Below are positions 27,317-31,598 of a stretch of DNA of 64,000 bases, in pieces. The translations under genes were made by a program, and so were the position numbers. This DNA comes from Lysobacteraceae bacterium (GTDB lineage Bacteria; Pseudomonadota; Gammaproteobacteria; Nitrococcales; AK92). Location: positions 1 to 64,000 of the forward strand of contig JAAYIK010000003.1 of NCBI GenBank assembly GCA_012523465.1, written 5' to 3'. Position 1 is the stretch's first letter. Every line of letters begins with the position of its first letter. The notes under the pieces are model-generated. The model saw only the letters and a program-made list of their open reading frames with translations. It was not told the DNA's origin and made no database searches.

Positions 27317-27829
27317 ATGCAGAAAGTGATTTATTTCGCCCACGGCAAGGAAAGCGGTCCCTGGGGCCGCAAGATCCAGGCCCTGGCCGCCGTCGGCCGA
27401 GATTGCGGCTATGCCGTCGAGAGCCCGGACTACAGCTTCACCCACGATCCCGACCGGCGGGTTCGCCATCTGCTGGAGCTGGCGCCGGCAGCGGACTGCC
27501 TGGTGCTGGTTGGCTCCAGCATGGGCGGCTACGTCTCCGCCGTCGCCAGCCGGACCCTCAGGCCCAACGGCCTGTTTCTCCTGGCCCCGGCGGTCTACAT
27601 GCCCGGCTACGAGGCCGAACCGGACCCCCGCGCCGATCTCATCGAAATCGTCCATGGCTGGCACGATCCGGTCATCCCAGTCGACAACGCCATCCGCCTG
27701 GCCTGTCGCCACCACGCCCGGCTGCATCTTCTCGACAGCCAGCACACGCTAAACGACCAGATCCCCTATCTGGAATTCCTGTTCCGCCGTTTCCTGGCGG
27801 ATGTCGAGGCGGCGATGCAGCCGGCCTAG
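27317..27829 (+). CDS. YqiA/YcfP-type alpha/beta-hydrolase fold protein
   Basis: 170 residues, a compact esterase-like alpha/beta hydrolase. It has the N-terminal YFAHGKESGP (HG oxyanion motif), nucleophile elbow GSSMGG, acid in GWHDPVIP and a late His in DSQHTLND, so the triad is complete. Relatives are annotated YqiA/YcfP; physiological substrates are unknown. Its TAG overlaps the TAG of the convergent OmpA-family gene in a shared CTAG. Confidence 0.85.
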   Translation: MQKVIYFAHGKESGPWGRKIQALAAVGRDCGYAVESPDYSFTHDPDRRVRHLLELAPAADCLVLVGSSMGGYVSAVASRTLRPNGLFLLAPAVYMPGYEAEPDPRADLIEIVHGWHDPVIPVDNAIRLACRHHARLHLLDSQHTLNDQIPYLEFLFRRFLADVEAAMQPA

Positions 27830-28977
27830 CGGCTGGTGAGGCGCAGCTCGATGCGCCGATTGCGCCGGAACGCTTCCTCGCTGCGGCCGGGGGCGACCGG
27901 CTGGAACTCGGCAAAGCCTGCCGCGGCCAGGCGCTGCGGCGGGATGCCCTGCTGGATGAGGAAGTGGACGATGGAGTTGGCCCGCGCCGTCGACAGCTCC
28001 CAGTTGGAGGGAAACTCCGGCGTGCGTATGGGACGGATGTCGGTGTGCCCTTCCACCTGCAGCACCCAGTCGATGTCAGGCGGAATCTGGGCGGCCAGCT
28101 CTTTCAACGTCGCCGCCACCTGCTGTAGCTGTCGGCGGCCAGCCGGTCCGATCTCGGCGGAAGCGGTCTCGAAGAACAGCTCCGACTGGAACACGAAGCG
28201 GTCGCCGACGATGCGGATGTCCTCCCGCTCGCCCAACACTTCCCGCAGCCGGCCGAAGAACTCGGAGCGATAACGCTGCAGCTCCTGCACCTTGGCGGCC
28301 AGGGCCACGTTGAGTTGCCGCCCCAGCTCCTCGATTTCCAGCCGTTGCCGCGCCACCGTGCCCTCGGCCAGCTCGAGGGCCTGCGCCAATTGCGCTAGCT
28401 GCTCGCGCAGCGCCGCCAGCTGGCGATTGAGTAGCGCCACCTGCTCGGCGGCCGCGCCGGCCCGCTCCTCGGCTTGCGCCAGCGCCGCCCCCTGCGCCGC
28501 CAGCCGGGCCTGCAGCCCCTGCTCCCGTTCCGCAGCCGCTGTCAGCTGCGCCTGCCGTCGCTCCAGCTCCTCGGCCGCCATCTCCAGCTGCCGCTGGCGC
28601 CGCTCCAGCTCTTCTTCCGCAGCCGCAAGCTCGGCGGCCAGAGCGCTTGCGCGGGCCGCCTGTTCCGCCAGCTGCTGCCGGGCTTGGTCGCGCTCCCCTA
28701 GCGTCGCCACCAGCTCCGCACTGAGCCGTTCCACCTCGCTGGCCAGCTCCGCGCTGCGCGCTCGCTCCAGGCTGAGCACCTCCGCCAGCGCCTCGATCTC
28801 CGCCTGCAGCCGTTGCAAGGCGCTGGTGCGACCGCTGAGCGTGACGCTCAGGTAGTGCTGCGAGACCATGAAGATGGTCAGCACGAAGATGAACATCAGC
28901 AGCAGGGTGGACAGGATGTCGACAAACCCTGGCCAGATGTTGATGCCGCTGCGGCCGCGACGACGCCCTTCGAACAT
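27826..28977 (-). CDS. MotB/ZorB-like peptidoglycan-binding protein with long coiled coil
   Basis: 383 residues. A single N-terminal transmembrane helix (about 13-40) carries a buried acidic residue, Asp20 in WPGFVDILSTLLL, as in the proton-conducting helix of MotB and ZorB. A very long Ala/Glu/Gln/Arg-rich coiled coil spans about 50-245. The C-terminal OmpA domain (about 250-383) has VEGHTD, NWELSTARA and RRNRRIEL, the peptidoglycan-binding signature. It pairs with the MotA/TolQ-like gene 3 nt upstream, so the two probably form a stator-like complex reaching from inner membrane to cell wall. Flagellar MotB is unlikely: the coiled coil is far longer and no flagellar genes are near. Confidence 0.88.
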   Translation of the reverse strand: MFEGRRRGRSGINIWPGFVDILSTLLLMFIFVLTIFMVSQHYLSVTLSGRTSALQRLQAEIEALAEVLSLERARSAELASEVERLSAELVATLGERDQARQQLAEQAARASALAAELAAAEEELERRQRQLEMAAEELERRQAQLTAAAEREQGLQARLAAQGAALAQAEERAGAAAEQVALLNRQLAALREQLAQLAQALELAEGTVARQRLEIEELGRQLNVALAAKVQELQRYRSEFFGRLREVLGEREDIRIVGDRFVFQSELFFETASAEIGPAGRRQLQQVAATLKELAAQIPPDIDWVLQVEGHTDIRPIRTPEFPSNWELSTARANSIVHFLIQQGIPPQRLAAAGFAEFQPVAPGRSEEAFRRNRRIELRLTSR

Positions 28978-28980
28978 GGC

Positions 28981-30087
28981 TCAACCCACCTGCCGCCCAA
29001 TCGCCTTCGCCAGCAGACGCAGCTCGGCCCGCAGCTCTTCCAGGGCCTTGCCCCCGTGCAAATTGATGTCGCCCAAGAGCGTGGTAACGCCAACTTCGAT
29101 GTTGCCGAGATGGCGAATCAGCACCTCGTTCTGCTCCCGCAGCACATCGACATCCCGGCACAACCGCTGCAGCAGCTCCGGCAGCTCCGCCACCTGCCGC
29201 TGCCCGCCCTGCATCTGCTCCGCCAGCGCCGCCAGCTGGGCCGTCAGCGCCATGACCCGGTTGTTGAGGGCACGCCGGTCGTCCTCCCCTTGCGCCAGGC
29301 TGCGTTGCAGCTTGTCCAGGCCGTCCGCCGCTTGCTCCAGCAGCGCCTGAATGTAGCTGGGCAGGGCCGGCTCGCCTTCCATGCCCAGCGGCCCGCCGAC
29401 CTGCGTCACGCTCGCCAGCCACTCCTCCAGGTCGTTGAAGAAGCGGTTTTGCGCGTGTCCCGCCTGCAGATCGCAGAAGCCCAGCACTAGCGCTCCGGCC
29501 AAACCGAACAGGGAAGAACTGAAGGCCGTGCCCATCCCCCGCAGCGGCTCCTCCAGGCCGCTTTTGAGGGCGCCGAACATCGCCCCAGCGTCGTCGCTGT
29601 CGACCTCCAGGCTGCCGAGCACGGCGCTGACAGAGGTCAGGGTATCCAGCAGTCCCCAGAAGGTTCCGAGCAGCCCGAGGAAGATCAGCAGGCCGATCAG
29701 ATAGCGGGCGACGTCGCGCGATTCGTCGAGGCGGGCGCGGATGCCGTCCAGCAGCACCCGCATGGTCGACGGCGATAGCACCAGCCGCTGTCGCTGGCGG
29801 GCGATCAGCATCTGCGCCATGGAGGCCATCAGGCCGCGCCGCGGCGGCTCCAGCTCGCGGCTATCGCCGCGCCGGTATTCGTCCAGCCAGCGGATTTCCG
29901 GCCACAACCGCAGGATTTGGCGTACGTGGACCAGGATGCCGATGACGAGCACGCTCAAGATCAGGGTGTTGAAAAACGGATTGGCCAGGTAGGCGCGCTG
30001 CAGCGGTGCCGCCAGCAGCGTCGCCACCACGGCCACCAGCAGCAGAAACAGGCTCATCCAGATGAGCTCGCGGACAGGGAAGCGCAC
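28981..30087 (-). CDS. MotA/TolQ/ExbB-type proton channel family protein
   Basis: 368 residues from the GTG at 30087, preceded by GAAGGAGA; the upstream open frame lacks features. Four transmembrane helices are predicted by eye at about 8-27, 39-56, 129-150 and 186-206. The third contains the family segment IFLGLLGTFWGLL and the fourth GMGTAFSSSLFGLAGAL. A Gln/Leu/Glu-rich C-terminal coiled coil follows from about 245. It probably conducts protons with the MotB-like partner downstream (3-nt gap) and transmits force along the coiled coils. This two-gene arrangement recurs in proteobacteria without a settled function and resembles ZorA-ZorB. Confidence 0.88.
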   Translation of the reverse strand: MRFPVRELIWMSLFLLLVAVVATLLAAPLQRAYLANPFFNTLILSVLVIGILVHVRQILRLWPEIRWLDEYRRGDSRELEPPRRGLMASMAQMLIARQRQRLVLSPSTMRVLLDGIRARLDESRDVARYLIGLLIFLGLLGTFWGLLDTLTSVSAVLGSLEVDSDDAGAMFGALKSGLEEPLRGMGTAFSSSLFGLAGALVLGFCDLQAGHAQNRFFNDLEEWLASVTQVGGPLGMEGEPALPSYIQALLEQAADGLDKLQRSLAQGEDDRRALNNRVMALTAQLAALAEQMQGGQRQVAELPELLQRLCRDVDVLREQNEVLIRHLGNIEVGVTTLLGDINLHGGKALEELRAELRLLAKAIGRQVG

Positions 30088-30240
30088 GACGCCGTCTCCT
30101 TCTTTTGTCTCAGTCCACGCTTGTTGGCAAAGCTTAGCACCAAGCCCGTCGAACCGAATCGCCCTGGCGCCGGCACGGATACGCATTTCAGCTAGTTCAG
30201 AAAATCTTGATTTTCCTTTTTGCCAGACCGACTTGATTCC

Positions 30241-30256
30241 TGTGCGCTGTTTCACA
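30241..30256. promoter_or_regulatory. CRP/Vfr-like palindrome in the divergent envelope-module promoter region
   Basis: TGTGC-GCTGTT-TCACA matches the CRP consensus TGTGA-N6-TCACA at 9 of 10 bases, centred 85 bp before the lipoprotein start. The same bases also form a GCGCTGT/ACAGCGC hairpin, so a structural role is equally possible. Confidence 0.35.
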
Positions 30257-30333
30257 GCGCGTAGCTGCGATGCAGCTGCCGCGCTCCGCGAACAACGCTG
30301 TATCAGCTTCATGGACGCAGAGGAGGACGACCC

Positions 30334-30714
30334 ATGCGCAGCAGCACACGCGGCTGGCTGGCGGCGACAGCCGCAGCCGCTGCCCTGGCAGGCTGTGCGT
30401 CGCAAGACGTACCCCCGCCACGGGCAGAGTTCGCCCGTGCCGATCTGGCGATCGAGCAGGCGGTATCAACCGGCGCCACCCAGCACGCGCCGCTCGCCCT
30501 GCGGGAGGCGCGGCAGAAAATGGAGCAGGCACGCCAGGCCCTGTACGAGGAGAATTTCCTGGAAGCGCGCCGCCTGGCTGCCGAGGCGCAGGCCAGCGCC
30601 CAGCTGGCGTTGGCCGAATCCGAGACCGCCCGCGCCGAGCAGCTGGCCGAGGAGAACCAGCGCAGCCTGCAAGTCCTGCGCGATGAGCTCGAACGCCAGG
30701 AGGTGCGGCAATGA
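30334..30714 (+). CDS. DUF4398-type lipoprotein
   Basis: 126 residues. The signal peptide ends in a lipobox ALAGC (Cys21), so it should be lipidated and, lacking Asp at +2, sorted to the outer membrane. The rest is helical with an APLALREARQKMEQARQAL segment characteristic of DUF4398, followed by a Glu/Ala-rich coiled coil. AGGAGG precedes the ATG. It overlaps the next gene by 4 nt (ATGA); both probably act together in the envelope. Confidence 0.83.
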   Translation: MRSSTRGWLAATAAAAALAGCASQDVPPPRAEFARADLAIEQAVSTGATQHAPLALREARQKMEQARQALYEENFLEARRLAAEAQASAQLALAESETARAEQLAEENQRSLQVLRDELERQEVRQ

Positions 30715-31598
30715 CACGGCTGAGACTCGCCTTCCCCGTCCTGATCATGCTGCTGCTCGGCGCCTGCGCCACCCAGCAGCCTACCGAAAGCAACATGCTG
30801 GCGCAGGCTCGCCAGGCCGTCGACGAGATTGAAAACAACCCCGATGTGGTGCGGCATGCCCCGGTCGCGCTGCGCGAAGCGCAGGAGAGTCTGCGCCAAG
30901 CCGAGCAGTCGGCCCAGCAGGGCGACGATCCCAGAGCAACCGACCACTACGCCTATCTCGCGCTCAAGCGCGCCCAGACGGCCCAGGCTCAGGCCCGCCG
31001 CGAGGTGCTGGCGCAGTCGGTCCGCGAAGCCGAGCAGGAGCGTGCCCGCATCCAGCTGGAGGCCAGGGAGCGTGCCGTCGCCCGGGCACAGCGCGAGGCC
31101 GAGGAAAGCCGCCAGGCGCTGGAGGAAGCGCAGCGCCAGTTGGCCGACCTGCAACCGCAGCAAACCGAACGCGGCATCGTGCTGACCCTGGGTGAAGTGC
31201 TCTTCCCCTTCGACAGCGCCGAGCTACAGCCGGGCGCCCACCGCGCCCTGGACCGGCTGGCAAGCTATCTCCAGGCCCATCCCGATCACAACATCCTGGT
31301 CGAAGGCCACACCGACGCCACCGGCGACGCCGACTACAACCAGCGGCTGTCGGAGCGACGGGCCGAGACGGTCTATCGGGCCCTGGTGCAGCGCGGGGTC
31401 GATCCCTCCCGCCTGCGCATCGCGGGCCTCGGCAAGGACTTCCCGGTCGCCGACAACAGCACTCCCTCCGGCCGCAGCCAGAACCGGCGCGTGGAAGTGG
31501 TGGTCGCGGAAGGAAACACGCCGCCCACCCGGCGCGAGATGCAGCAAGCCACACGTCCTGCACCGGCTGGCGACGTCACGCGCCAGCCGCGCGGCTAA
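30711..31598 (+). CDS. OmpA-family lipoprotein with DUF4398-like N-terminal domain
   Basis: 295 residues: lipobox LLGAC (Cys19), a DUF4398-like helical region (APVALREAQESLRQAEQ, paralogous to the preceding protein), a coiled coil (about 90-155), then an OmpA peptidoglycan-binding domain (about 160-270) with LFPFDSAEL, VEGHTDATG and SQNRRVEVVV. It would tether the outer membrane to peptidoglycan. A Pro/Thr-rich tail ends the protein. Divergent from the proton-channel pair, which also ends in an OmpA domain, suggesting one envelope system. Confidence 0.9.
   Translation: MTRLRLAFPVLIMLLLGACATQQPTESNMLAQARQAVDEIENNPDVVRHAPVALREAQESLRQAEQSAQQGDDPRATDHYAYLALKRAQTAQAQARREVLAQSVREAEQERARIQLEARERAVARAQREAEESRQALEEAQRQLADLQPQQTERGIVLTLGEVLFPFDSAELQPGAHRALDRLASYLQAHPDHNILVEGHTDATGDADYNQRLSERRAETVYRALVQRGVDPSRLRIAGLGKDFPVADNSTPSGRSQNRRVEVVVAEGNTPPTRREMQQATRPAPAGDVTRQPRG

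Follow-up and report, generated by a model that had tools for sequence, protein, structure and literature searches.

A ZorA-related channel and its partner with a heptad-quantised coiled coil: a stator-type pair beside two DUF4398 lipoprotein genes in a Lysobacteraceae genome

What does a stator-type gene pair do in a genome where it lies back to back with two lipoprotein genes, and do the four genes belong together? The question arises in the first 64,000 nucleotides of contig JAAYIK010000003.1 of a Lysobacteraceae bacterium (assembly GCA_012523465.1; hereafter “the window”), where the genes of a channel subunit and its partner are transcribed divergently from two genes for DUF4398 lipoproteins. 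A sequence-only reading of the window had joined all four in one energised envelope module. All four open reading frames proved to be real and to lie where that reading had put them, arranged as two two-gene units. Homology and fold establish the channel and its partner as members of the stator-type class, and two features of the pair seem worth following up, namely its kinship with ZorAB without being a defence system, and a periplasmic stalk whose length is quantised in heptads. The family to which the pair belongs was already known; new in this analysis are the findings that its channel is kin to ZorA and that its partner coil follows a heptad rule.

The partner (27826-28977, minus strand; 383 amino acids) starts three nucleotides past the stop codon of the channel gene. 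It scores 414.5 bits against the NCBI family PRK09039/NF006543, whose curated equivalog cut-off is 305 bits, and it has the adjacent upstream stator-type channel gene that marks this family. All 36 aligned relatives match the same family, which is functionally uncharacterised and labelled only “peptidoglycan-binding protein”. The single N-terminal transmembrane (TM) helix carries Asp20, invariant across the 36 homologues together with W15-P16-G17 and V19, and the C-terminal OmpA domain (residues 268-374; 27856-28176; E 2e-14) contains the likewise invariant D313 and R332, the usual peptidoglycan-binding pair of OmpA domains. Between the two lies a long coiled coil.

The channel (28981-30087, minus strand; 368 amino acids) begins with a GTG codon at 30087, the point at which its homologues also begin, and contains IFLGLLGTFWGLLDT. 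Four hydrophobic stretches (residues ~8-26, 39-57, 129-147 and 187-205) identify it as a 4-TM protein, and they are followed by a predicted cytoplasmic helical C-terminal tail (residues 244-367; 28987-29358) that is present on most family channels and short or absent in some (channels of 238-243 amino acids). In the homologue alignment, the invariant residues T142 and S192 fall on pore residues of TolQ and ZorA; a pore role for them, like a wall-binding role for D313 and R332 in the partner, would agree with what is generally known of these families. PF01618 barely recognises the channel (16.9 bits, E 0.0055, gathering cut-off 22.9), which is why a routine genome search lists six other stator-type channels and misses this one. 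A profile search against solved structures hit no stator protein, its matches being mostly coiled coils of unrelated proteins. The predicted model matches the TM-core fold of the stator superfamily with Z scores of 8-12 at moderate model confidence, among them 11.8 for TolQ, 11.6 for ExbB, 11.2 for ZorA (root-mean-square deviation 3.5 A over 195 residues) and 10.2 for MotA, for which the alignment runs from the first TM helix onward. The stator hallmarks picked out by the sequence-only reading, in the channel, in the acidic residue of the partner helix and in the OmpA domain, are thereby borne out.

To which stator lineage does the channel belong? Trees were built in which ZorA proteins confirmed by NCBI models, together with TolQ/ExbB and MotA proteins of the genome itself, served as references. 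In them the family is a single cluster neighbouring ZorA, and the family together with ZorA is set against all others with a support of 97/95. An artefact of shared coiled-coil tails can be dismissed as the source of this kinship, because a tree of the TM3-TM4 core only (residues 125-210; 29458-29715) retained the grouping with ZorA against MotA and ExbB/TolQ (98/84); several branches of this core tree are long, and its inner branching leaves ZorA either sister to or inside the family. A grouping with flagellar MotA did not appear in the trees, which include few MotA references on long branches. In addition, the core is matched by ZorA models, and all 36 channel relatives match the ZorA1/ZorA3 models. 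Judged from these comparisons, ZorA is supported as the nearest known relative of the channel family.

Is the pair then a defence motor that senses phage or wall damage as ZorAB does and signals through the channel tail to effectors elsewhere in the genome? Both trees and the uniform model matches speak for this idea, as does the cytoplasmic helical tail on most members, although the tail is absent in others. The channel itself, however, scores nowhere near any Zor cut-off: it reaches 9-16 bits against the NCBIfam ZorA models, whose cut-offs are 100-750 bits, whereas true ZorA references score 272-275 bits. No PADLOC match to Zor effector genes (ZorC/ZorD, ZorE or ZorF/ZorG), nor to any other defence model, was found among the seven neighbouring proteins, in agreement with the sequence-only reading. 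Searches of the whole genome likewise found no EH_Signature, DUF3348 or DUF2894, those for EH_Signature and DUF3348 having no positive control and thus giving no proof of absence. Membership in Zorya is ruled out by the low ZorA scores and the lack of Zor partner genes nearby. The distribution of the family points the same way, as the pair is single-copy, widespread in whole families and found in varied chromosomal contexts with no defence genes among the neighbours examined. Of 59 close relatives 44 have the channel, as do 16 of 232 Gammaproteobacteria and 116 of 397 Pseudomonadota, with one match per genome in the latter two surveys. Taken together, a defence role appears quite improbable.

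The second distinguishing feature of the pair is the partner's periplasmic coiled-coil stalk (residues 45-248; 28234-28845), the length of which differs among species in whole heptads. The coil itself, claimed by the sequence-only reading, is real: across residues 45-248 the hydrophobic residues recur with a period of 3.5, a signal equalled in strength by none of 5000 shuffles, and the heptad pattern starts by about residue 45. Of the points in that reading's description of the sequence that could be checked, the likening of this coil to ZorB is the only one that did not hold, since the ZorB proteins in our comparison have about 234 amino acids and no long coil, and the long helical extension of Zorya is the cytoplasmic tail of ZorA (PMC11890865). 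Within the family, the segment corresponding to residues 44-179 ranges from 80 to 409 residues, while the 69 residues ahead of the OmpA domain have a fixed length in 35 of 36 partners.

To describe this variation independently of any alignment, coil length was measured from the WPGFVD motif to the RYRSEFF motif in 59 non-redundant proteins. The length equals 3 modulo 7 in 49 of these, and 24 of the 33 distinct lengths fall into the same class (P ~4e-13). Other moduli up to 14 are flat, with modulo 14 merely echoing modulo 7; the 49 proteins divide into 30 in one modulo-14 class and 19 in the second. A tree of the TM and OmpA parts, from which the coil was left out, requires no fewer than 46 changes of length but just 10 of modulo-7 class; among sister pairs of unequal coil length, 8 of 11 differ by exact multiples of seven. 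Eight of the ten exceptions are shifted by three or four residues, which corresponds to stammers and stutters, irregularities with which a coiled coil can cope. In the window partner the leucine register continues through residues 45-248, from the membrane to the wall-binding domain. The length rule and the register together are what a continuous coiled coil, in phase from membrane to wall, would look like.

Changing length by heptads is a general habit of coiled coils, and therefore the rule proves that the coil is under constraint, not that it transmits torque. It is not a trivial trait of any helical tail in these operons, because the cytoplasmic helical tail of the channel, which served as a control, shows no heptad length rule. 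Separately, the lengths of the channel tail (28987-29358) and of the partner coil (28234-28845) are correlated across the family (Spearman 0.58, kinship ignored).

How far does the functional unit extend beyond the pair? We collected 80 loci from named genomes, mainly Rhodospirillales, Acetobacterales and Chromatiales with a few Desulfobacterota, and 33 further survey genomes. At every locus with sufficient sequence the partner comes next after the channel, adjacency being kept in 33 of the 33 survey genomes. The neighbourhood beyond the pair changes from lineage to lineage, and therefore the functional unit is the pair. In related families the channel is flanked by genes for an AI-2E permease and Tex on one side and for a UPF0227 esterase on the other. 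The window has this UPF0227 (YqiA-like) gene at 27317-27829, convergent with the partner gene, and several related families keep it next to the pair. In Rhodospirillales and Acetobacterales, the channel gene is immediately preceded by the gene of another, OmpA-like exported protein (55 of 70 testable loci, with a four-nucleotide overlap in 18 of them); this gene was not seen in the other alphaproteobacterial families sampled in the 33-genome survey. This upstream protein (for example, L086:7456-7995) is often proline-rich and has a degenerate OmpA-like C-terminal domain, in which the arginine of LSLSRA is kept and the HTD motif is lost. OmpA-type neighbours of the channel have thus been gained at least twice. 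In one gammaproteobacterium, reading frames of a repeated CDLKGIVVWLH peptide lie about 1 kb upstream of the channel (L231:7808-9259) and are probably a translated CRISPR array.

The two divergent plus-strand genes are best regarded as neighbours of the motor pair. The first (30334-30714) encodes a DUF4398 lipoprotein of the PA3691 type, and the second (30711-31598), which overlaps it by ATGA, a DUF4398-OmpA lipoprotein resembling LptF/PA3692. Both carry a lipobox (LAGC and LGAC) and, as the sequence-only reading had recognised, a DUF4398 domain (PF14346; 45.4 and 57.0 bits against a gathering cut-off of 27.9), and the second ends in an OmpA domain of its own. The latter aligns almost over its full length with the LptF equivalog model NF053613 at 203.4 bits, below the cut-off of 400, and on this sequence evidence is LptF-like and not the LptF equivalog. 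In Pseudomonas aeruginosa, PA3691 and PA3692 respond together to envelope stress and lptF is under AlgU control (PMC7685553, PMC8466533).

Could the motor nonetheless drive these lipoproteins, as a four-gene, Tol-Pal-like link of inner membrane, wall and outer membrane? Three genomes (the window genome, G003 and G001), with channels 56-73% identical, share the divergent arrangement; in G001 the contig breaks off within the first of the lipoprotein genes, and the other adjoins Tex on another contig. The intergenic region (30088-30333) of all three holds a TCTTGA.TT..CTTT block, which upstream of the first lipoprotein gene (30205-30240) extends to TCTTGA.TT..CTTT......ACCGA, a possible promoter compatible with co-regulation of the motor pair and the lipoproteins. 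The repeated pairing of the channel with OmpA-type proteins also fits such a link, and DUF4398 is somewhat commoner in genomes with the channel (10/16 versus 79/216, one-sided Fisher P 0.04, kinship ignored). However, these three genomes, all of the window's family, are the only ones in which the lipoproteins adjoin the channel; outside this family (80 loci, 16 relatives, 33 survey genomes) no DUF4398 gene was found adjoining the pair, and the DUF4398 and DUF4398-OmpA pair stands alone in many gammaproteobacterial genomes in which the channel is absent. Synteny suggests that the ancestor of the window's family acquired the lipoprotein pair at a position between its channel and AI-2E/Tex genes. 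Genomic context hence rules out the four-gene module of the sequence-only reading as a general unit, and a motor that drives the lipoproteins is unlikely. The divergent lipoproteins are probably a separate envelope-stress operon that lies beside the motor pair in this family only; they may be co-regulated with the motor or dock to it. Another pair of this DUF4398/DUF4398-OmpA type is present in the window genome (L163:4959-6265), near a gene resembling an RND efflux membrane-fusion protein.

What, finally, does the pair do? The sole experimental hint that we found on the function of a PRK09039-type pair comes from Komagataeibacter hansenii, a cellulose producer without flagella that has adjacent motA (348 amino acids) and motB (321 amino acids) genes, the best match of motA being a G. 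diazotrophicus MotA/TolQ/ExbB protein (68% identical; PMC6570709). G. diazotrophicus has a family pair of 362 and 326 amino acids (L143), with the three PF01618 proteins of that genome lying elsewhere. The K. hansenii genes are probably a PRK09039-type pair and likely orthologous to the window family, as indicated by length, annotation, context and the absence of flagella. GFP fusions in K. hansenii are polar or bipolar, and overexpression makes the cells long and chained, speeds their spreading and loosens the cellulose (PMC6570709). These data favour a role in late division, cell separation or polar envelope work, with a purpose like that of Tol-Pal and a wall grip of its own.

The increased colony spreading upon overexpression (PMC6570709) and the MotA-like 4-TM topology would also suit a stator of flagellar or gliding type that had been recruited to supply auxiliary torque. 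Yet Komagataeibacter is reported to carry such genes without having flagella (PMC6570709), the window genome has two other MotA/MotB-type pairs, and the trees set the family apart from MotA, so that such a recruitment is very hard to credit.

We therefore favour, with a probability of roughly 45%, an ion-driven inner-membrane motor that drives a coiled-coil stalk to the wall, probably in late division or polar envelope remodelling. By analogy with MotAB, ExbBD, TolQR and ZorAB, the complex would have a 5:2 stoichiometry and use protons. Two partner chains would stand in the channel pentamer, placing Asp20 inside the pore next to channel residues T142 and S192, and their periplasmic parts would wind into one parallel coiled coil, its register unbroken from the membrane to the paired OmpA domains, which presumably hold the peptidoglycan. 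Ion flow would turn the channel against the partner, and the phase-locked stalk would carry torque or strain to or from the wall. The likeliest use would be energised remodelling of envelope and wall at poles and new septa, that is, in late division or cell separation.

Several points weigh against this picture. AlphaFold breaks the partner coil at residues 173-179, a stretch of low confidence, which leaves room for a hairpin; a hairpin stalk is disfavoured because the leucine register is identical on both sides of the break, with one heptad position 78% hydrophobic before it and 80% after it, and because the length changes are single heptads, not pairs. A straight coil of 204 residues would be roughly 30 nm long, and those of the longest family members roughly 90 nm, farther than the wall usually lies. 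As even the shortest coils (~150 residues, ~22 nm if straight) would overshoot the normal gap between inner membrane and wall, the stalk has to be tilted or bent or to follow the surface of the wall. The pLDDT of the channel model is only 73, and the model's Z scores lie in a range where helical bundles can match by chance, though the top rows are nonetheless all stator proteins. A literature search found no biochemical or knockout data on any PRK09039 member. Lastly, the K. hansenii link depends on length, annotation and lack of flagella, and its phenotypes are those of overexpression.

The pair matters beyond the window, as a single-copy motor pair found across whole alphaproteobacterial families carries no assigned function. 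If it is the non-defence relative of ZorAB, it shows what the motor of Zorya may have been before its defence role. The heptad rule predicts which coil insertions the machine should tolerate and which should disable it, providing a clean test of stator action on the wall. More tentatively, the family may represent one more type of rotary motor coupled to peptidoglycan, a housekeeping counterpart and relative of ZorAB that is widespread among Alphaproteobacteria and whose parallel coil, in exact heptad register over 150-600 residues, would pass torque between membrane and wall in division or polar growth.

How does the pair compare with known systems? The sequence-only reading had called it neither a recognised Zorya system nor a known motor; it is indeed not Tol/Exb, flagellar or Zorya, but its partner passes the cut-off of a named family. 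With ZorAB it shares a channel core related in sequence and fold, a cytoplasmic channel tail, and a partner with one TM helix, an Asp and an OmpA domain. Unlike ZorAB, the family channel has an extra N-terminal TM region and a tail that may be short or absent, the long coil being on the partner instead; the partner motif is WPGFVDALA and not the SD.MAGL of Zorya, and the pair is single-copy and chromosomal in whole families without effector genes found beside it. Flagellar MotAB/PomAB likewise combine a 4-TM channel with a peptidoglycan-binding partner, whereas our family is a separate clade with a coil of ~200 residues on the partner, and no flagellar genes lie near the window pair. TolQR-Pal/ExbBD share the fold and the channel residues; however, ExbB/TolQ group apart in the trees, the window partner has an OmpA domain and a coil, and the window genome carries its own TolQ and ExbB-type genes elsewhere. 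The lipoproteins repeat the gene order of P. aeruginosa PA3691-PA3692 (LptF), a DUF4398 lipoprotein, which we presume PA3691 to be, followed by a DUF4398-OmpA lipoprotein, with the difference that in the window they lie divergent to a motor pair. From other PRK09039/NF006543 pairs, in which the channel precedes the partner in every locus with enough sequence, the window pair differs in nothing essential: it is an ordinary member of that family.

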